A stretch of 35,364 bases of DNA, from NCBI GenBank assembly GCA_024280935.1, contig JAJRPE010000245.1, forward strand, positions 1-35,364, in the 5' to 3' direction. The notes beneath the pieces are model-generated. The model worked only from the letters and a program-made list of their open reading frames with translations, had not been told where the DNA came from and did not search any database. This stretch comes from Candidatus Hydrogenedentota bacterium. Lineage in GTDB: Bacteria > Hydrogenedentota > Hydrogenedentia > Hydrogenedentales > JAEUWI01. Shown here in pieces: positions 8,095 through 16,490 of this stretch (position 1 is the first letter of the stretch; each line of letters opens with the position of its first letter). The position numbers and the translations under genes were made by a program.

Positions 8095-9963
8095 TTATCC
8101 ATCCAGCACCAGCCGGTGCATGGCAATATCATGATAGGCGTCGTGAAGAAACAAGGCCTCCCGCTCCGTTCCGACGTGCTCAAACCCTATGGCCGAAAAA
8201 AACTCCCCGAGCGCGCCATCCCCTGGACCTGATGCGGCTATCAGGGTGGTAAAGGCCCCGTGCTTCGCCGCCTCCGCAAGTATTCGGGCAAAGCTGTTGC
8301 GTATCCCCTTGTCGAGATAACCCTGCGTGTCTTGGAAAAATATCCAGACCCGCGCAACGCCGGGCACCTGATCGGGGCGCACTTTGAGAAGACCCATGGC
8401 TTCGCCCCGCCGTGACACGACCATAAACTCCTGCTCAATACCCCGTGGATGGAGCGAGTCCATCTCTCGATCATAGCGGGTGGCCAGAAACACGCCGTAC
8501 TCGTTGCCCAGAAAATAGGTGGCTTCGCTCCAGTTTTCCCAGCGCGTCAACAGGGTCGCGTCCGATTCTTCGATGGGACGGACCGCCACCTTCATCGTGA
8601 GCGCCATGCGCGCCATCCCCCAAAACGAGGGGCGCTTTCCTGGCCGGAGACGCTGGTACATGCGGGCAAAATCGACCCCTTCCGCAGAGAGCAGATTAAA
8701 GGCAGCAATTGCCGCGCTGAACCACGTGCGCTGCGCGTCGCACCACGCGGGATTGGGCTGGCGAATTCCCCCGCTCAAGGCGTAGTGAATTGCACTGTGG
8801 CCGCCGCCGCAAAGGTTTCGCGCCCAACACGCAACACAGGCTGATGTGGTTGCCGCGCCCAAATCATCAAATTCCGCACGGCGAGATTCGTCGAATGAAC
8901 CAGCAAGAATATTACCCAAATGGTAGTCAGCGACACCAATGAAGTAGCGGGATGGATAAATGTCGCCTTGGGAATCAATAGCCAGAATCCGGGTGCCTGA
9001 TTCATCGGTGCGTGCTTGCGCTTTCCCCTCATAAATCTGATGAAATAACCCCGCAATGGGTTCGAGACGAAAGTAGTTCCCCTTCAAAAGCTGTTGGGCA
9101 TAGTAGACGGCAGTCGCCTCAATACCTGCGGTCATAGCTGCGGCATCAAGGCCCCCCACCCCCATGTAGGCACCGGGAATATCGAGATAGATCTGTTTGA
9201 AGCCTTGTTCGAGCAGATAGACGACGGCGTCGCAGAAGTCACCATGGCCGGGGACCAAGCGAAGCTCAACGTCCACGCCTTCCGCCTTCTCCGCGAGGCG
9301 GGCCAGCTTGGTCATGGAAGCACCCTCGGCTTTGGACCAGTTCCCTGCAAAGTCCGATACCCCATCCGCCGTCGAAAAGGAATAGCACAGGTTGATTTCG
9401 TGCCCTGCCAATGCCGCGTTGGCCCGGCGTGGTGCCGGGTTCGTGAACACGACGGCAATCGCGAGTGATTTATCGGCAATCTTCGCCAAGCCAAAAGCAC
9501 GGCGGCTCCAGTCGGGGAACCAGCCGCTCAGCCCCTGCGCGTCGGGAACGTACAACTCCAGACGAAGGGACTTCTCTGGCCCGGAGCGTCCCAGCAGCAG
9601 CACAAGAGCACCTTCGCACAAGGCCGTTGCCTGGGCCGAATCACGGCTCGAACCATCCAATACGACCTCGACACGCCGCATACCGGGTGTCAATTCGTAG
9701 GCTTTAAGCTGGTCCTGCGGCTTTTTCTGTGGAAGAATGGACTTGGTCGCCCGAAGCCATTCCAGTTCGCCAACAACCTCCTCCACTTCCGCCGCCGGAT
9801 GGGCATCACGAAGCAAATACACGATGTGGTTGGTCGGCGTGTGGGGATAATGCTCCAACACATCCCAGGAAATCCCATCGCATTCAAAACAGAAACAGGT
9901 ATCCGTATCCAGGACGAAGTGCCGTCCATCCCGTTCGAATCGGTGCAATAGCGATTGGGCCAT
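8095..9963 (-). CDS. SPASM-type peptide-maturase-like protein without radical-SAM cysteines, fused to a GNAT domain
   Basis: A 622-aa protein in three parts. Residues 1-78 (LLHRFERDGRHFVLDTDT... LEWLRATKSIL) resemble the N-terminal peptide-binding (RRE/PqqD-like) region of SCIFF/QhpD-class maturases. Residues ~95-430 follow the rest of such maturases: FKQIYLDIP, the SPASM-like run ILAIDSQGDIYPSRYFIG, and CVACWARNLCGGGH (C376, C379, C385) with C408. The CX3CX2C motif expected at ~95-110 is absent, 'YPC' has become YPS (S338) and 'GGC' has become GGH (H389). Residues ~459-622 are a GNAT acetyltransferase (VRPIEESDATLLTRW...). The ATG overlaps the permease stop as TAATG. Likely role: peptide binding and/or acylation within the cluster; a catalytic radical-SAM function is unlikely. 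Confidence 0.68.
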   Translation of the reverse strand: MAQSLLHRFERDGRHFVLDTDTCFCFECDGISWDVLEHYPHTPTNHIVYLLRDAHPAAEVEEVVGELEWLRATKSILPQKKPQDQLKAYELTPGMRRVEVVLDGSSRDSAQATALCEGALVLLLGRSGPEKSLRLELYVPDAQGLSGWFPDWSRRAFGLAKIADKSLAIAVVFTNPAPRRANAALAGHEINLCYSFSTADGVSDFAGNWSKAEGASMTKLARLAEKAEGVDVELRLVPGHGDFCDAVVYLLEQGFKQIYLDIPGAYMGVGGLDAAAMTAGIEATAVYYAQQLLKGNYFRLEPIAGLFHQIYEGKAQARTDESGTRILAIDSQGDIYPSRYFIGVADYHLGNILAGSFDESRRAEFDDLGAATTSACVACWARNLCGGGHSAIHYALSGGIRQPNPAWCDAQRTWFSAAIAAFNLLSAEGVDFARMYQRLRPGKRPSFWGMARMALTMKVAVRPIEESDATLLTRWENWSEATYFLGNEYGVFLATRYDREMDSLHPRGIEQEFMVVSRRGEAMGLLKVRPDQVPGVARVWIFFQDTQGYLDKGIRNSFARILAEAAKHGAFTTLIAASGPGDGALGEFFSAIGFEHVGTEREALFLHDAYHDIAMHRLVLDG

Positions 9964-10802
9964 TAATAGGTTCCCAGCGTACCCTTGGCGCGGCTCAGGT
10001 TTTCCATGTATTTGAAAAAGCTAATGCCAAGTGTAGTCCAGACGACACAACTGAGCACAAGAAAAAACATAGAGGGATGCTGAAACACGGAGACATACGC
10101 ACCGCCGTCGAGGGTCTGATTGTGAACCAGAACATGTTTGATAAGAATGGACGCATCCGCAATAGGCAGCACGTGCATCAGCGTCGCCATGGCCCATCCC
10201 TGATGGAGCAGTTCTTCCTTGGCAAAAATTGCGAGGGCGAAGAGTGACATTCGGATTAAAATGGCTACCTGACCTACCTGCTTGAAGACCAACACCATGC
10301 CCCCCATCATGAAACCAAAACCAAGCAGGTTCACGAAAGTCAGAATAAACAGGGTGGCCAGGGCAATCGCGTCGAAGTGCAAGGTGCCGCCCACGGTAAT
10401 AGTCACCAGCCAAACCATAATGCAAGAAGAGAATATCGAGTTAATCGCGGCCACGGTGCTGCGTGCCATAAAATTCGTAATCAGCCCGTGGGGACTCAGG
10501 CAGAGCTGCTCCAACACGCCTGTCCCGGCCATCCCCTGGATCCCCTGGGTAAACATGCCCACAATTCCGAAAGCGAACATGCCCACAATAAAGCCCAGAA
10601 CGAAGTTGGTCGCCGATTCTGGATCGCCGAACTTGTTCTGCATGGCCTCGGTCACCTCTTTTCGGCTTACCATGAAACCAGCGATAAGCACGAGCAACAT
10701 GCCGTAGCCCATGGCCATGCCGATAAGGGTGCGAAGCCAATAGCGCCGCATAATAATGAGGGTGCGCACGACTTCGGCTTTCATAACGAGAAGAAAACTC
10801 AT
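9963..10802 (-). CDS. ABC-2 type transporter permease
   Basis: A 279-aa integral membrane protein with about six hydrophobic segments (near residues 24-44, 67-88, 113-138, 145-173, 178-196 and 245-264). The cytoplasmic turn GTGVLEQLCLSPHG near 94-106 is a hallmark of ABC-2 permeases. It should form the channel for the ATPase encoded upstream at 11462-12487 and export a peptide or provide self-protection. ATG 10802 has AGGAG ~10 nt upstream. Its TAA overlaps the ATG of the maturase-like gene, which implies coupled translation. Unlike most such pairs, permease and ATPase genes are separated by ~660 bp of repeat-rich DNA. Confidence 0.85.
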   Translation of the reverse strand: MSFLLVMKAEVVRTLIIMRRYWLRTLIGMAMGYGMLLVLIAGFMVSRKEVTEAMQNKFGDPESATNFVLGFIVGMFAFGIVGMFTQGIQGMAGTGVLEQLCLSPHGLITNFMARSTVAAINSIFSSCIMVWLVTITVGGTLHFDAIALATLFILTFVNLLGFGFMMGGMVLVFKQVGQVAILIRMSLFALAIFAKEELLHQGWAMATLMHVLPIADASILIKHVLVHNQTLDGGAYVSVFQHPSMFFLVLSCVVWTTLGISFFKYMENLSRAKGTLGTY

Positions 10803-11461: not shown

Positions 11462-12487
11462 TTAGATAGAGCTGGTGGTAAGCTGGAGAAACACGCTTTC
11501 CAGGTTCTGCTGGCGCTGCGTAATGCCGCACAACTCATAGTTCCCTTGGTCAAATGCGGCCGTGATTGCGTAAAGAGCGCGAGATCGGGTCTCCGCGCTG
11601 GGTTCCAGGTTGATGACCGCTGTGGGGCCTTCGGCAGTAAGCTCGGTGGTCACGGAAACCACGCCAGGAATCTGCTCCAAGGCGTTCACGTCGGGCTCGC
11701 GGTCAAGCTGAAAGACATAGACCTGCCCGGAAAAATTGCCGAGGAGTTCCTGGGTCGATTTACAGGCAACCAGCTTCCCCTTGTCGATAATCCCAATACG
11801 GTCGCAAAGCTCCTGGGCAACGTGCATGTCATGGGTTGTCACGAGCACGCTCTTGCCCTGCGTGCGTGTCATCTCAATAATCTTGTCCTTGATGGCCCTG
11901 GAACTTTGGACATCCAAACCCGTCGTCGGCTCGTCCAGCAGCAACACCTGTGGGTCGGCGATAAGGGCAATGCAGATCGCCAGTTTCTGCTTTTGCCCGC
12001 GCGACATATGGCGTACTTCGGTGTTTTTCTTGTCCTTCAGGCCAATAAAATCCAGCAGTTCATGGGAGCGCTTTTTCAACACGGAACCCTTCACGTTCTT
12101 CAGGTTTCCGTAATACGCCAGGTTTTCCATGGGGGTCAGGGGCCAGATGCTCGTCCGGGTGCCTTCGAGCACGACACCCACCTTCTCCAAAACCTTCTTT
12201 CGATTGCGTTCGACCTCAAGGCCGCCCACAATCACCTTGCCCGAATCTGGCTTAACCAAGCCACTGAGCATTTTTACCGTCGTGGTCTTCCCCGCCCCGT
12301 TGGGGCCAAGCAGTCCAAAAATCTCACCCTGGCCAATGCTGAAATTCACGTCTTGCACAGCATGCACATAGGTTTTCTTATAGAAGGGCCGCTTGCCCGT
12401 TTCCTCGTCCTTCAATAAGAAGTTCCGAGCAAGAAAGGTCTTGTGCAGACCAGAAAGTTCGATGAAATTATCCGAGGATTCTGACAT
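11462..12487 (-). CDS. ABC transporter ATP-binding protein
   Basis: A 341-aa ABC ATPase of the ABC-2/DrrA type. The Walker A GPNGAGKTT is at 61-69, the signature is MSRGQKQ at 161-167 (a variant of LSGGQ), Walker B LLLDEP is at 182-187 followed by TTGLD, and the H-loop is LVTTHDMH. A ~110-residue C-terminal extension with the usual alpha/beta fold follows. It should energise the permease of 9963-10802. The CPBP gene stops 6 nt upstream, so the two are co-transcribed; only a weak AAAGG lies upstream of ATG 12487. Gene order suggests export of, or immunity to, the cluster's peptide product. Confidence 0.93.
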   Translation of the reverse strand: MSESSDNFIELSGLHKTFLARNFLLKDEETGKRPFYKKTYVHAVQDVNFSIGQGEIFGLLGPNGAGKTTTVKMLSGLVKPDSGKVIVGGLEVERNRKKVLEKVGVVLEGTRTSIWPLTPMENLAYYGNLKNVKGSVLKKRSHELLDFIGLKDKKNTEVRHMSRGQKQKLAICIALIADPQVLLLDEPTTGLDVQSSRAIKDKIIEMTRTQGKSVLVTTHDMHVAQELCDRIGIIDKGKLVACKSTQELLGNFSGQVYVFQLDREPDVNALEQIPGVVSVTTELTAEGPTAVINLEPSAETRSRALYAITAAFDQGNYELCGITQRQQNLESVFLQLTTSSI

Positions 12488-12493
12488 TCTTTA

Positions 12494-13384
12494 CTACGCC
12501 TTTACGCAAGATTCCGTAACACCACCTGTCGGCAGCGGAGACTCCGCGTGATCGAAGTACACAATTTCAAAGTTCCGAACGGTGTGGATCATCACCACCA
12601 GCATCAGGCTGCCCGTCCAATAATAGAGCGCTCCCAGCAGCACTGAAAACACCAGGAATTCCACGGAGTCCACCACGTGGTTGTAGAAAAAATGGCGATG
12701 CACCACAGAAAACACCACGGCCACGATTCCAATCGCCAACGCGGGGCTGCCCAACAGGGCGATAAGCGCACCCTGGACGGCCACCCGGTAGATGATTTCC
12801 TCCATGAGGCTCACATCAATGCACGCGAAAAGTTGCTGCGGTGCCTTGGCTGCGAACCCGGCCAATGGACGGATATCCACCAGATAGTGCCCAATGCCCT
12901 TGAGCGAACCCAGGGAGCGATGACTGAAGCACAGCGAGACTCCGAAAACACCGTGACCAGCAACCACGCCCAGTATAACCCATCCGGGGGTGAAAAGGCT
13001 CCGTCCAAGAACGTCATTTTCATAAGCGATATAGCAGGAGAGTCCAAGCAGTGCGGTCTGCAACATGCCGCCAAGCACATAGAAAAATCGGGCCGCGAGA
13101 CCCATCGCTTCGCCGTCCTGGGCTTTCTTTCGGGCTTGGCGGAGCAGGAGCCACAAGAAAAAAACACCACCGACTAACAGTGTCTGGGGAGCGAGGAGCC
13201 ATGCGAGGAGGCCTGGCGTTCCGAGCACCTGGCACACGAAGAACAACAGGACGGGCATCACGGGAAGGGGCATGCCGCGATGCAAATGGGAATCTGTCTC
13301 ATCCGCTTCAGGACCTTGCCGCCAATGGACAAACGTCGCGTAGGCCATGTAGCTGCCAAGGGTGGCAAGCAGCAGTACGTTCAC
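12494..13384 (-). CDS. CPBP-family intramembrane protease (CAAX/Abi)
   Basis: A 296-aa polytopic membrane protein with the three signature motifs of CPBP glutamic proteases: EEIIYR (E195, E196, R200), FSVVH (H229) and HTVRN (H267, N271). In bacteria such proteins (for example PlnI-like and SkkI-like proteins) often sit in bacteriocin loci, giving immunity or processing peptides. It starts with GTG at 13384, whose GTGA overlaps the stop of the GNAT gene 13381-14010, and its own stop is 6 nt from the ATPase start. It is the best candidate in the cluster for leader removal or self-protection; which of the two cannot be told from sequence. Confidence 0.88.
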   Translation of the reverse strand: MNVLLLATLGSYMAYATFVHWRQGPEADETDSHLHRGMPLPVMPVLLFFVCQVLGTPGLLAWLLAPQTLLVGGVFFLWLLLRQARKKAQDGEAMGLAARFFYVLGGMLQTALLGLSCYIAYENDVLGRSLFTPGWVILGVVAGHGVFGVSLCFSHRSLGSLKGIGHYLVDIRPLAGFAAKAPQQLFACIDVSLMEEIIYRVAVQGALIALLGSPALAIGIVAVVFSVVHRHFFYNHVVDSVEFLVFSVLLGALYYWTGSLMLVVMIHTVRNFEIVYFDHAESPLPTGGVTESCVKA

Positions 13385-14010
13385 ACCTCCGGCTCCGTGC
13401 CCGACGCGCCCAGGGCCTCAATCATCGCCTTCAAGGACAAGCCTTCCGTCGCACGGTGGTATCGGACTCGGAAGGCATCAAACTCGGAACGCAACAGGCC
13501 ATAGCCATAGAGGTCATGGAGCACGCCATCCCTGGCCACATGGTCACGGAGCGTGAGTTCGCGAACCGCGCCTGTCATTTCGAATATCCGCCACGAGGCG
13601 GAGTTGAAACTGTAGATATAGGCGCTGATGCGATGAAGATTCAACTCGTGAAAGCAGTACTCCAGCGTCTGGTATACGGCGCCCGCAGCGACCATGCCGT
13701 TACGGTGCTTTTCTTTCCCAATATACAGATCAACGCTGCACGAACGGTTGCGCCAACTGATGTTCTGTAAGGAAAGCAAACCGACGGGACCCTGTTCAGG
13801 CGAGTCGATAAGCAGGTAGATGCCTCCCGGCATCGTATGCCCCACCGCACGCCCCAGCATGGCGACGATCTTTTCCCGGACCTGCTTGGGAGAACGGGCG
13901 GGGTCGCCGTAGAGGAAACGCTGGAAGTCTTCGTTCTCCATCCACGCGACGACTGTATCGAGATCATCGCGCTCGGCGCGGCGGATAAATGTCGTCGTGG
14001 AGAATGGCAT
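13381..14010 (-). CDS. GNAT family N-acetyltransferase (RimJ/RimL-like) 1
   Basis: A 209-aa GNAT protein. It opens with TTFIRRAERDDLDTVVAWMEN, followed by VGLLSLQNISWRNRSCSVDLYIGKEKHRNGMVAAGA, where the R/H-x-x-G-x-x-A turn is the acetyl-CoA pyrophosphate loop, and by LNLHRISAYIYSFNSASWRIFEMTGA, the RimL-type C-terminal motif. These enzymes acetylate N-terminal amines or small molecules. The start is 2 nt after the stop of the second GNAT gene, and its TGA overlaps the CPBP GTG, giving tight coupling. A role in acylating cluster peptides is inferred from position only. Confidence 0.87.
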   Translation of the reverse strand: MPFSTTTFIRRAERDDLDTVVAWMENEDFQRFLYGDPARSPKQVREKIVAMLGRAVGHTMPGGIYLLIDSPEQGPVGLLSLQNISWRNRSCSVDLYIGKEKHRNGMVAAGAVYQTLEYCFHELNLHRISAYIYSFNSASWRIFEMTGAVRELTLRDHVARDGVLHDLYGYGLLRSEFDAFRVRYHRATEGLSLKAMIEALGASGTEPEV

Positions 14011-14012
14011 GA

Positions 14013-14591
14013 TTAGATTGAGCGCTCGTACACGTGGTGGGTCGGATTATTCAAGACAAAGGTTTCCAGATGATGCCACCCGCCTTGGGCAAAAAGCACC
14101 TCCCGCTGAACACCCGCAGACGAGAAACCGGAGCGCTGCAAGAACGTGGTCAACGCACTTTCGCTGGAGAGTACGTGGGCCAGTACTTTTCGTAAACCGA
14201 GCCGCACAAAAGCACGCTCGCACAAGAAGGCGTGGGCCTCATCCGCAACCGGGCTTTCATAGGCCTTGGAGTCGCCAAAGTGAATACTGTATTCAGCATA
14301 GCCCGCCTCGGTGCTTAACCCGCGCAAACTGCAAAAACCAGCAATGGCACCCGTGCGCCCCTCAACGGTATAAAAGCCCCCTTCGGTTATTTCTTTCCGC
14401 GTCAATAGATCGCGAATTTCATCCCGATTCGGCAGCAAACGCTCCCGGCGGGCGTCGAGCAGACCCGCCTTGGGTTCATCCAGCATATAGAGCTGGAACA
14501 ACGCCTCAACATCGTCCTGCTCCGTACCCCGGATAAAGGTATGATCCCCACGAATCACGGCAGTGCCCAATCTCCATCCATAGGCGTTCAC
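14013..14591 (-). CDS. GNAT family N-acetyltransferase 2
   Basis: A 192-aa GNAT protein: FIRGTEQDDVEALFQLYML at the N-terminus, IAGFCSLRGLSTEAGYAEYSIHFGD in the central beta strands, ESPVADEAHAFLCERAFVRLGLRKVLAHVLSSES and FLQRSGFSSAGVQREVLFAQGG at the end. It resembles the GNAT1 product only at fold level. It is the first gene after the small-peptide array, 239 bp downstream of peptide 1. The GTG start at 14591 has a poor ribosome site, so a start a few codons further in (GTG of AVIRG) is possible. Substrate unknown. Confidence 0.8.
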   Translation of the reverse strand: MNAYGWRLGTAVIRGDHTFIRGTEQDDVEALFQLYMLDEPKAGLLDARRERLLPNRDEIRDLLTRKEITEGGFYTVEGRTGAIAGFCSLRGLSTEAGYAEYSIHFGDSKAYESPVADEAHAFLCERAFVRLGLRKVLAHVLSSESALTTFLQRSGFSSAGVQREVLFAQGGWHHLETFVLNNPTHHVYERSI

Positions 14592-14830: not shown

Positions 14831-14956
14831 CTAAAAACCCGAAGTGGTTTCGTCCTTCTTGTCATTACGAAAATCTACCCATGCACGAAAGAGGGCGTTG
14901 TAGAAATCCACAAACGCGTCGGCTTTGGGAGTCGAAATCTGCCTGATATGTTTCAT
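14831..14956 (-). CDS. Small peptide 1 of the leader family (putative RiPP precursor)
   Basis: A 41-aa ORF that starts MKHIRQISTPKADAF and continues with an amphipathic, aromatic-rich segment (FVDFYNALFRAWVDF) and an acidic/polar tail. The N-terminus matches the other four peptides (M-K-H-I-x-x-[LI]-S..P-x-A, with one residue less before the proline). GGAG lies ~8 nt before the ATG. It is the last peptide of the array and the closest to the GNAT genes. No known family was recognised; the precursor role rests on the shared leader and on the neighbours. Confidence 0.72.
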   Translation of the reverse strand: MKHIRQISTPKADAFVDFYNALFRAWVDFRNDKKDETTSGF

Positions 14957-14995
14957 GTATTCACTCCAGTTAGTGCCTTAGTCCGCGAGAACCGA

Positions 14996-15031
14996 CACAA
15001 AAAAGAAGATGCCCCCCTCGACGAGAGAGGG
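14996..15031 (-). terminator. Possible rho-independent terminator between peptides 2 and 1
   Basis: On the minus strand CCCTC-7 nt-GAGGG is followed by GGGCATCTTCTTTTTTG. The stem is short and three G's separate it from the T-run. It could limit transcription of peptide 1 and the downstream enzymes relative to peptides 2-5. Confidence 0.4.
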
Positions 15032-15135
15032 TCCAACCCATAGAGTCTGGCTGTGGCCCAGCCACTTTATTTTGTGACCCGCGCTTATTAGACCATATTT
15101 CGACTGGCGCTACAAGTTTGGGGACGGACCAGCCC

Positions 15136-15321
15136 CTACTGCGGCACAGGATTGCTTGGATCCTTGTTTATGAAGAGGGGAATAGTCGCTGTCAGGATCT
15201 CATCGAAAAGGGTAACTTCTCCCGTCGCCACGACAAAATCGCGAATAAACGTGAGCTTCACCTCGGGCGCGACATCCTGCGCCTTCTCGGGAACCCGGGT
15301 AAGGGTACGCAAACGCTTCAC
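15136..15321 (-). CDS. Small peptide 2 of the leader family (GTG start)
   Basis: A 61-aa ORF starting with GTG and reading M-KRLRTLTRVPEKAQ, then a helical hydrophobic region (KLTFIRDFVVATGEVTLFDE, ILTATIPLFI) and the tail NKDPSNPVPQ. AAGGGAGGT lies ~10 nt upstream, a strong ribosome site that fixes the GTG over an in-frame upstream ATG at 15357, whose product begins MRSGPAKGGSAA. PEKAQ aligns with PERAQ of peptide 3. No cysteine is present. It starts 35 nt after peptide 3 ends. Confidence 0.72.
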   Translation of the reverse strand: MKRLRTLTRVPEKAQDVAPEVKLTFIRDFVVATGEVTLFDEILTATIPLFINKDPSNPVPQ

Positions 15322-15356
15322 AGCCGCACTACCTCCCTTCGCCGGACCAGACCTCA

Positions 15357-15527
15357 CTATGCGCCGGTCTGGGTCGGTGCCTTGAACTCGGCAAAGGACG
15401 GAAAAATGGTCTGCAACGCTTCAATAACGAAGCACAACAACGCTTGGTAGTCGCTGCTAATGTTGGCGCAGATTTCGTTGGTCTGTGCCCGTTCCGGGCA
15501 TTTGGACAGGCAATGAATATGTCGCAT
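15357..15527 (-). CDS. Small peptide 3 of the leader family (cysteine-containing)
   Basis: A 56-aa ORF, MRHIHCLSKCPERAQ at the N-terminus, then TNEICANISSDYQALLCF and an amphipathic FVIEALQTIFPSFAEFK stretch. It has four cysteines (residues 6, 10, 20, 32). AGGAAG lies 8 nt before the ATG. Its start aligns with peptides 2, 4 and 5 over the first 15 residues, while the rest is unrelated, as expected for leader conservation with variable cores. The frame is not open much further upstream of the ATG. Confidence 0.75.
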   Translation of the reverse strand: MRHIHCLSKCPERAQTNEICANISSDYQALLCFVIEALQTIFPSFAEFKAPTQTGA

Positions 15528-15631
15528 GGTACTTTCTTCCTGGCTTTACCCGCCCAATCAGCAGGCGATTACCTTGGTTCAGTAGGCGCTATGAATGCGA
15601 AAAGTCTATCGCGACCGTGAAACGGTTCGCG

Positions 15632-15817
15632 TCAGGAGACATCCGTCGTGCCGCCCAACAATCCCGTAAGGCCGGTCAGGTCGGAACTCTCCTTGGCGGT
15701 GACTGCCACAGCAACGGCCGTAAGAATGTCAGCAACCAAGCCGAAAATAGCCGCAAAACTGAATTCATCTCCCTGCGCACGACAAGGTCGGCAAGACAGG
15801 GTTCTAATATGTTTCAA
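15632..15817 (-). CDS. Small peptide 4 of the leader family (TTG start, hydrophobic core)
   Basis: A 61-aa ORF starting with TTG, M-KHIRTLSCRPCRAQ, followed by a hydrophobic helix-like core (FAAIFGLVADILTAVAVAVT) and a Gly/Thr/Ser-rich end (DLTGLTGLLGGTTDVS). AGAGGA lies ~7 nt upstream of the TTG. The hydrophobic core resembles membrane-active bacteriocins in composition, but no motif proves this. The CxxC falls within the conserved leader, as in peptide 3. Confidence 0.75.
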   Translation of the reverse strand: MKHIRTLSCRPCRAQGDEFSFAAIFGLVADILTAVAVAVTAKESSDLTGLTGLLGGTTDVS

Positions 15818-15881
15818 AACTGAATCCTCTTCAAATTAAGTGTAAGCGCCGCACACGAAAAGCAACGTTCCCCACAACAAT

Positions 15882-16037
15882 TCACCGTACCGTCGTGTTA
15901 GTCGCAGGGGGCGTTTCTTTCGCCGCATAAAAGCTCGATAGCGCCTCGGAAATCCCGGCGGCCAACGCCAATTTCTGACCGGTGCTGAAGTCTTCGGCTC
16001 GATTCGGCTTCCGGGCCAGGAGATTCAAATGTTTCAA
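15882..16037 (-). CDS. Small peptide 5 of the leader family (TTG start)
   Basis: A 51-aa ORF starting with TTG, M-KHLNLLARKPNRAED, then an amphipathic segment GQKLALAAGISEALSSFYAA and a polar tail rich in Thr and Pro. AAGGAA lies ~8 nt before the TTG. An upstream in-frame ATG (16121) would add 28 residues that break the alignment with the other peptides, so TTG is preferred. It is the first gene of the minus-strand array; the promoter is probably in 16040-16200, though I see no convincing -35/-10 pair. Confidence 0.72.
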   Translation of the reverse strand: MKHLNLLARKPNRAEDFSTGQKLALAAGISEALSSFYAAKETPPATNTTVR

Positions 16038-16216
16038 GGGTCTTTTCCTTCCCAAGTATAGGGTCTTCACCTGAGCATAGCATACACGTCCGCAACGGTA
16101 GTAGCCACACGACCACGTCACCCCTATTGTACCAACGGCCAGCCCAGGATGTTACACCCTGTTCCTATAATCACCTGAACAACGAAAAAAGTTCCCTGCG
16201 GGCTGACAAGAATTTG

Positions 16217-16281
16217 CACGGGTAAGCCCTTCGGGCCCGTGGCACCCAGGATTCTCTTTTTGAATCATGAAGGCACCCGTA
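16217..16281 (+). repeat. R1 half copy (R1b-prime) with shared 3' flank
   Basis: CACGGGTAAGCCCTTCGGG..CCCGTGGCACCC (16217-16247) is the right half of R1. The next bases, GGATTCTCTTTTTGAA..GAAGGCACCCGT, match those after R1b (16491-16521), which indicates a local partial duplication. Confidence 0.75.
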
Positions 16282-16372: not shown

Positions 16373-16490
16373 CGGGTGCCACGGCCTGTCAGGGCTTTAC
16401 CCGTGTAGTAGCCTGCCGACAATGAGGGGGCTATCCAATTTTGGAAGACCACGGTTTTTGCACGGGTAAACCCTTCTACCCGTGGCACCC
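16373..16490 (+). repeat. Dispersed nested palindrome R1b
   Basis: CGGGTGCCACGG..TCAGGGCTTTACCCGTG at the left and CACGGGTAAACCC..TACCCGTGGCACCC at the right; the inner spacer AGCCTGCCGACAA matches R1c. It lies between the start of the peptide array and the 3' end of gltD; together with R1b-prime and R2 it fills the 501-bp gap 16038-16538. Confidence 0.85.

Follow-up and report, generated by a model that had tools for sequence, protein, structure and literature searches.

A 35,364-nucleotide stretch of DNA from Candidatus Hydrogenedentota bacterium (contig JAJRPE010000245.1; "the window" hereafter) carries on its minus strand an array of five small open reading frames (ORFs) and, directly downstream on the same strand, an operon of six genes, which encode two GNAT-fold proteins (GNAT-A and GNAT-B), a CPBP protease, an ABC transporter ATPase, an ABC-2 permease and a large protein referred to as Mat. 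Judged from their sequences, array and operon look to work as a precursor-maturation-export unit for ribosomally synthesized and post-translationally modified peptides (RiPPs). The best reading of this system is that it keeps the type of leader recognition found in the SCIFF (ranthipeptide) system and has dropped the radical chemistry.

The five precursor-like peptides and their relatives

The five ORFs of the array are given below with the range of pN/pS (the ratio of nonsynonymous to synonymous change) between orthologues; type letters refer to the core types described further down.

15882..16037, minus strand: precursor-like peptide 1, type A, TTG start, 51 residues, MKHLNLLARKPNRAE...YAAKETPP; pN/pS 0.32-0.44
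15632..15817, minus strand: precursor-like peptide 2, type A, TTG start, 61 residues, MKHIRTLSCRPCRAQ...VTAKESSD; pN/pS 0.44-0.57
15357..15527, minus strand: precursor-like peptide 3, type B with two core cysteines, ATG start, 56 residues, MRHIHCLSKCPERAQ...ICANISSDYQALLCF...FKAPTQ; pN/pS 0.19-0.47
15136..15321, minus strand: precursor-like peptide 4, type C, GTG start, 61 residues, MKRLRTLTRVPEKAQ...APEVKLTF...FINKDPSNP; pN/pS 0.40-0.41 (two pairs)
14831..14956, minus strand: precursor-like peptide 5, type E, ATG start, 41 residues, MKHIRQISTPKADAFVDFYNALFRAWVDFRNDKKDE; pN/pS 0.14-0.19

A recheck of ORFs and translations confirmed that all five exist as an earlier note on this DNA had described them: each is preceded by a plausible ribosome-site-like stretch (AAGGA, GAGGA, AGGAA, GGAGG and GGAG for peptides 1 to 5), and the proline of the fifth N-terminus stands one residue earlier than in the others. 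Aligned over residues 2-14, the five N-termini reach a score of 233 (BLOSUM62 sum of pairs), compared with 36 for the best of 50,000 within-sequence shuffles; sampling 200,000 quintets at random from the 1,291 start sites of the window never gave the observed score (best 27). The leader likeness claimed in the note is thus far beyond that of shuffled sequences, and it has matches outside the window, since the leader family spans Candidatus Hydrogenedentota.

The support for coding rests on selection: pN/pS is 0.14-0.57 in all 14 window-relative orthologue pairs tested (amino-acid identity 24/53 to 35/40; several synonymous distances are saturated), which marks them as constrained coding sequences, type E most strongly so. 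Peptide 5, of this type, is the best conserved of the five and lies closest to the operon; look-alikes of peptide 1 occur in three genomes (G001, G002 and G003). That the ORFs arose by chance or as an annotation artefact would suit their shortness and the non-ATG starts of three of them, but this explanation was rejected on the clustering and score statistics of the leader, the profile matches in genomes of the order and the purifying selection, and its probability is practically negligible. Comparison of the five peptides with NCBIfam and Pfam returned nothing convincing (best E 0.36 and 0.076), the peptides' own genome holds no match to an ATG-started DNA pattern for MKHIRT, and neither tRNAs nor RNA families above threshold were found in the window. 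Upstream of the array lie two genes that we take to be gltD and gltB, an assignment made outside the scan against family libraries. Two copies of a 20-base direct repeat (95% identity) occupy window positions 16213-16232 and 16457-16476, in the interval that separates the gltD-like gene from peptide 1.

With an iterated leader profile, 34 loci, one of them that of the window, were found to hold 95 array peptides, spread over 28 of them. Across these 34 loci, 88 of the 90 leader matches above 10 bits lie within 4.5 kb 5' of gnatA on its strand, regions that make up 140 kb of the 1,264 kb searched on two strands, and two lie elsewhere (in L047, gnatB replaced the absent gnatA as reference); the profile was trained on the peptides that it counts, so that these counts show clustering and not independent discovery. 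Hidden Markov models (HMMs) of the peptide classes add members with less usual starts, which brings the loci to one to six peptides each by the counts made here. The peptide closest to gnatA reads as type E in 28 of 28 loci, 27 of them by the leader profile and one (L036) by the class HMM. By simple patterns made for this analysis, the peptides were assigned to the following core types:

Type A, ...KE: 43 peptides
Type B, two cysteines, LCT...LCF...K: 14 peptides
Type C, APEVKLTF...NK[DN]PxNP: 9 peptides
Type E, ADAFxDFxNAxWRAWxDFxYxKKNE: 25 peptides
Type F, ...KNP[ST]: 4 peptides

The cores are hydrophobic (median best 18-residue Kyte-Doolittle value 1.7 in the 95 peptides), and a lysine occurs past residue 20 in 94 of 95. 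In 88 peptides it is part of the pattern K-[EDNTKRQS], which shuffled tails contain in a mean of 49 of 95 and which is found in 37% of all ORFs of 38-75 residues in the loci. The late lysine lies in the last third of all five window peptides; in peptide 3 it is followed by alanine, which makes this peptide one of the seven outside the pattern. It is invariant in the profile alignments of type E (19/19) and type A (18/18), which were built on 19 rows (25 peptides by pattern) and on 18 of the 43 peptides, respectively. Eleven lone leader peptides from 10 genomes, picked by leader, ribosome site and hydrophobicity and not by lysine, all have a lysine within their last ten residues. The late lysine is the leading candidate site for a putative modification, for example acylation. 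Lone or paired small ORFs away from the operon (L182-L190, L192, L193; e.g., contig 192 of G017 and contig 66 of G027) combine an MKH or MRH leader with a long hydrophobic stretch and a lysine at or near the C-terminus.

The note's statement that the cores differ completely after about 15 residues applies among the five paralogues, but each core type recurs in relatives and the late lysine is common to all five. Rather than being freely variable, the cores fall into types that are found in several families and are subject to purifying selection. This also bears on the suggestion that the locus encodes an array of bacteriocins or toxins, together with their export and self-protection, from which several hydrophobic helical peptides are released against neighbouring cells. 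Hydrophobic cores, an ABC transporter and several peptides per genome agree with such a role, but the recurrence of the types across families, their purifying selection and their presence in most genomes of the order speak against an arms race, an argument that has also been made for SCIFF in the available part of one source (PMC8326336); a bacteriocin array is regarded as improbable. Such recurrence across families makes a standing component of the envelope or of signalling a likelier product than a toxin.

The six-gene operon and its distribution

The operon reads, from the array onwards:

14013..14591, minus strand: GNAT-A, GNAT-fold protein (PF13302, 6e-8)
13381..14010, minus strand: GNAT-B, SpeG-like, the most conserved GNAT of the operon (PF13302, 1.3e-17; closest PDB chain 8fv0, E 1.4e-15)
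12494..13384, minus strand: CPBP/Rce1-type intramembrane protease (PF02517, 1.3e-12)
11462..12487, minus strand: ABC transporter ATPase (PF00005, 1.5e-30; motifs GPNGAGKTT and LLLDEPTTGLD read from the translation)
9963..10802, minus strand: ABC-2 permease (PF12698, 0.0016, under the curated cut-off; named by place and conservation)
8095..9963, minus strand: Mat, 622 residues, with an RRE-like N-terminus (RRE, RiPP recognition element), a radical-SAM-like barrel without CxxxCxxC (SAM, S-adenosylmethionine), a SPASM remnant with the cysteines of auxiliary site II (Aux II) and a C-terminal GNAT domain

These six genes keep a single order and orientation in 33 of 40 fetched loci, with a few genes cut by contig ends or split; the operon is incomplete in the other seven (L012, L031, L041, L047, L052, L054, L061), and seven shorter loci also examined, L012 included, each hold only part of it. 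A second GNAT-B-like copy is present in L037, L039, L040 and L050, and of the 40 loci, 11 have gltD on the 5' side of the operon. Alignments were made from 39 of 47 Mat sequences and, out of 36 each, from 25 of GNAT-B, 21 of GNAT-A and 19 of the CPBP protease. The identity of GNAT-B to the window copy is 52-77%. In the CPBP protease, E195, E196, R200, F225, H229 and H267 are invariant in 19/19 aligned sequences and match EExxxR, FxxxH and a later histidine, which we take to be the motif of CPBP/Rce1 proteases; the enzyme thus likely keeps its catalytic residues.

Of the 68 genomes of the order, 62 contain Mat, some of them as fragments; the genome that the window comes from is counted among them. 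Outside the order, only weak partial matches occurred, in 8 of 79 genomes (E 2.8e-14 or worse). A pattern scan of the genomes of 84,980 species gave 106 confirmed Mat matches, of which the best 80 represent 77 loci. Among these best 80, strong matches come from records under the names Candidatus Hydrogenedentota, Hydrogenedentes or Hydrogenedens, from four called just uncultured bacterium and from one with a Nitrospiraceae label; all other phyla contribute partial matches only (E 5e-18 or worse). The Hydrogenedentota records in the scan are all metagenome-assembled. The Nitrospiraceae label, of bacterium OTbin.67 (L071), looks wrong.

Peptides and Mat co-occur: a match to the type E or type A profile (E<=1e-3, anywhere in the genome) is present in 58 of 62 Mat-positive genomes vs 2 of 6 Mat-negative ones. 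At E<=0.01, the type E profile matches 54 of the 68 genomes of the order and 34 of the 38 of good quality, the type A profile 59 and 36, respectively. One genome that is 99% complete, in which no Mat was detected (G009, L194), carries a pair of leader-bearing peptides that follow a gltD-like gene close to the end of a contig. Array and operon do not always adjoin. In G039, G031 and G057 the array sits in another contig than the operon, and in G026 (L047) contig C107 holds it beside a gnatA-like ORF, so that the assembly may have split the operon there; G041 and G053 have only single type A matches elsewhere in the genome. The separation of array and operon in several f11 genomes would suit the view that the peptides are ordinary small membrane proteins, whose SCIFF-like N-termini arose by convergence and whose neighbouring operon serves something else. 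Yet the co-occurrence, the tight linkage elsewhere and the kinship of both the leader and its putative binding protein to one known system make such a coincidence very improbable.

Mat, the GNAT-fold proteins and a putative pathway

Mat aligns with CteB, the SCIFF maturase (PDB 5wgg), over positions 4-425 with a profile E of 8e-44, a match that covers the RRE, the barrel and the SPASM region. In an AlphaFold2 model of Mat (39 rows, pLDDT 86.1, pTM 0.70), 5wgg is likewise the top Foldseek match (6.3e-18; TM 0.69 by target and 0.51 by query, root-mean-square deviation 6.0), and the C-terminal part matches RimL/SpeG-type GNATs. The CxxxCxxC motif of radical-SAM enzymes is absent from all 47 Mats. 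Cysteines at 376, 379, 385 and 408 (Aux II) are present in 39/39 aligned sequences, as are those at 25 and 28, with a third at 23 in 36/39; position 320 is Asp in 38/39 and Cys in the SCIFF rows. Compared with 22 maturases from SCIFF loci, Mat has 0% Cys in the three radical-SAM columns and 0-5% in the Aux I-like columns, Aux I and Aux II being names that we assign by known ligand patterns. The comparison maturases were chosen by script for CxxxCxxC and a SPASM motif, so that their own 100% Cys in these columns holds by construction; the absence of Cys in Mat, the CteB alignment and the count over 47 Mats are independent of that choice. Each of the 39 aligned Mats has a match to the SCIFF maturase model TIGR03974, but that of the window's copy, with 69.4 bits, is far below the cut-off of 425.

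Conservation in the N-terminal domain agrees with a putative role in leader binding. Among the invariant non-Met residues of Mat 1-100, 11 of 12 lie in or beside beta3 (F24, C25, E27, C28, D29) or on alpha3 (E62, V63, E66, E68, L70, R71), and the corresponding elements of the CteB RRE hold CteA according to the available part of its description (PMC8326336). With nearly all invariant RRE residues at beta3/alpha3, the MKH... leader may lie as a strand in the groove between them, as CteA does in CteB. Two further sets of proteins were also seen. An Aminicenantes contig (L126:3500-5216) encodes a 572-residue RRE/SPASM-like protein without CxxxCxxC, which by eye includes a signal-peptidase-like part, and next to it a following relative with the motif. 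Full-length radical-SAM/SPASM proteins with CxxxCxxC in G014, G052, G048 and G026 (L244-L247) score 268-283 bits on the SCIFF maturase model, under its cut-off, and are possibly QhpD-like.

Taken together, the five ORFs are considered fairly probable precursors of a RiPP-like pathway encoded by the downstream operon, with a leader bound by Mat, modification by GNAT-fold domains, trimming by the CPBP protease and export by the ABC transporter. The earlier note had proposed a multi-precursor RiPP-like array, and the sequences give this good support: the leader is conserved, a relative of RRE-containing maturases, a protease and an ABC transporter adjoin, and peptides and operon co-occur; the variable cores and the lack of a recognisable class are the two points to amend. 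In this pathway, the GNAT-fold domains would receive the helical core from Mat and most likely acylate it or add another group, with the late lysine as the leading candidate. The CPBP protease might then cut, perhaps behind the conserved Ala14, with the transporter carrying the trimmed product out.

Several observations weigh against this pathway or parts of it. It is predicted from gene sequences, the target and cut site of the CPBP protease are guesses, and in 6 of 34 loci (L047, L057, L058, L059, L062, L063) no leader peptide was found beside the operon. The canonical acyl-coenzyme A (acyl-CoA) P-loop of GNATs, [QR]xxGx[GA], is at its expected place in 0/25 GNAT-B rows, where the glycine position is mostly M, L or I; GNAT-A has the pattern in 2/21 rows at unrelated places (positions 66 and 96 of the window's GNAT-A), and 11/39 Mat rows have it at 532, a site that falls between two strands of the model and before the stretch 544-552 where it is expected. 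Being degenerate or misplaced in all three GNAT-fold domains, the P-loop makes the use of acyl-CoA doubtful. As to the origin of Mat, QhpD, nif11 and ScfB-like models match it about as well as the SCIFF maturase model does, which places it in that wider group. A tree was made by a quick method from 69 rows, which remained of 93 once near-duplicates and a number of extra rows had been dropped; the SCIFF rows themselves need 3 changes. The Mats form a single clade in it (SH-aLRT 100), whose long branch (0.79 + 0.94 changes per column) separates them from all 48 other rows; this clade is not nested in the SCIFF maturases, so that the tree does not show descent from them.

The proposed chemistry is where this pathway is weakest, with the P-loop missing from its place in GNAT-B and unrecognisable in the other two. 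An alternative is that Mat and the GNAT-fold proteins are pseudo-enzymes, which do no more than bind and chaperone the hydrophobic helical peptides until trimming and export and leave the product unmodified. The loss of the radical-SAM motif in 47/47 Mats, the absence of a canonical P-loop from its place in 25/25 GNAT-B rows and the conserved protease and ATPase motifs all fit such an escort. Against it, the identity of GNAT-B to the window copy is high for mere scaffolds, and the conserved lysine, the retained Aux II cysteines and the Mat-specific Cys23/25/28 suggest a working site, so that an escort without chemistry seems rather unlikely.

For the pathway with modification, a more detailed version is put forward tentatively, at somewhat under even chances: in a peptide system typical of the phylum, a SCIFF-type maturase would have retained the domain for leader binding together with one SPASM cluster site, lost the radical chemistry entirely and gained GNAT-fold domains with a non-standard donor or donor site, and one conserved leader would feed several distinct lysine-tagged helical peptides into one export route. 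Radical-SAM/SPASM maturases are known as radical enzymes, and their relative here has no radical site in any copy examined and seemingly keeps leader binding and a family of precursors. If true, this would be a natural experiment that splits leader recognition from chemistry and shows what the Aux II site and the RRE do alone, and it would provide a widespread, conserved secreted-peptide candidate for Hydrogenedentota. Among the open-access papers searched, none was apparent on a SCIFF-like system in Hydrogenedentota or on a radical-less SPASM pseudoenzyme in RiPP making.

Comparison with known systems

The note had recognised no RiPP class, but both the leader and the putative maturase are similar to those of the SCIFF (ranthipeptide) system, from which the array and operon differ in having neither the radical-SAM site nor the six cysteines, which SCIFF precursors carry within about 45 residues. 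The leader of the SCIFF precursor (TIGR03973) has an MKHI-type N-terminus (MKHIKxLS-like) similar to that of the array, MKH[ILV]xx[ILV][ST]; 21 of 43 SCIFF leaders score at least 10 bits on the Hydrogenedentota leader profile (examples: MKHIKVLSRNRL). The other 22 score lower, with one group reading MKFIKVVATKT and five that look like upstream starts wrongly chosen by the script. This set comes from 43 loci with 33 distinct N-termini, 2 loci being included twice and 30 coming from one class. As in the SCIFF/ranthipeptide pair CteA-CteB (5wgg), the precursor genes lie near a maturase relative with RRE, barrel and SPASM region. Unlike that system, the Hydrogenedentota system has no six-cysteine core (no TIGR03973 match in the five peptides), no radical-SAM cysteines and no Aux I; its Mat carries a GNAT fusion, its operon adds two GNATs, a CPBP protease and an ABC transporter, and there are one to six precursors per locus. 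In the 68 genomes of the order, neither the SCIFF precursor nor the SCIFF maturase (TIGR03974) was found over its cut-off, with short sub-cut-off precursor matches in three. By the defining features of those families, as far as they can be read from sequence, array and operon are not members of SCIFF/ranthipeptides; the bond that defines ranthipeptides, a radical non-alpha thioether, is a matter of product chemistry, and the radical-SAM site is missing here. The active form of SCIFF peptides is called an open question in the available part of one source (PMC8326336), and a conserved peptide set with a leader of the SCIFF kind would offer another approach to it.

The pseudo-SAM/SPASM proteins of haloarchaea (TIGR04347) share with Mat a SPASM region without a radical-SAM site, as their family name indicates, and their match to Mat is weak (18.3 bits vs a cut-off of 525). 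Selidamides and other GNAT-lipidated RiPPs (phaeornamide, nostolysamide) share a RiPP-like cluster with a GNAT and an ABC transporter and a lysine as possible acceptor. As described in the available parts of two sources (PMC9505594, PMC13060382), they have NHLP/Nif11 leaders and lanthionine enzymes, and the GNAT that acylates the nostolysamide lysine has an acyl-CoA P-loop (PMC13060382). In the Hydrogenedentota system, by contrast, the leader is SCIFF-like, the GNAT P-loop is degenerate and acylation is a candidate modification.
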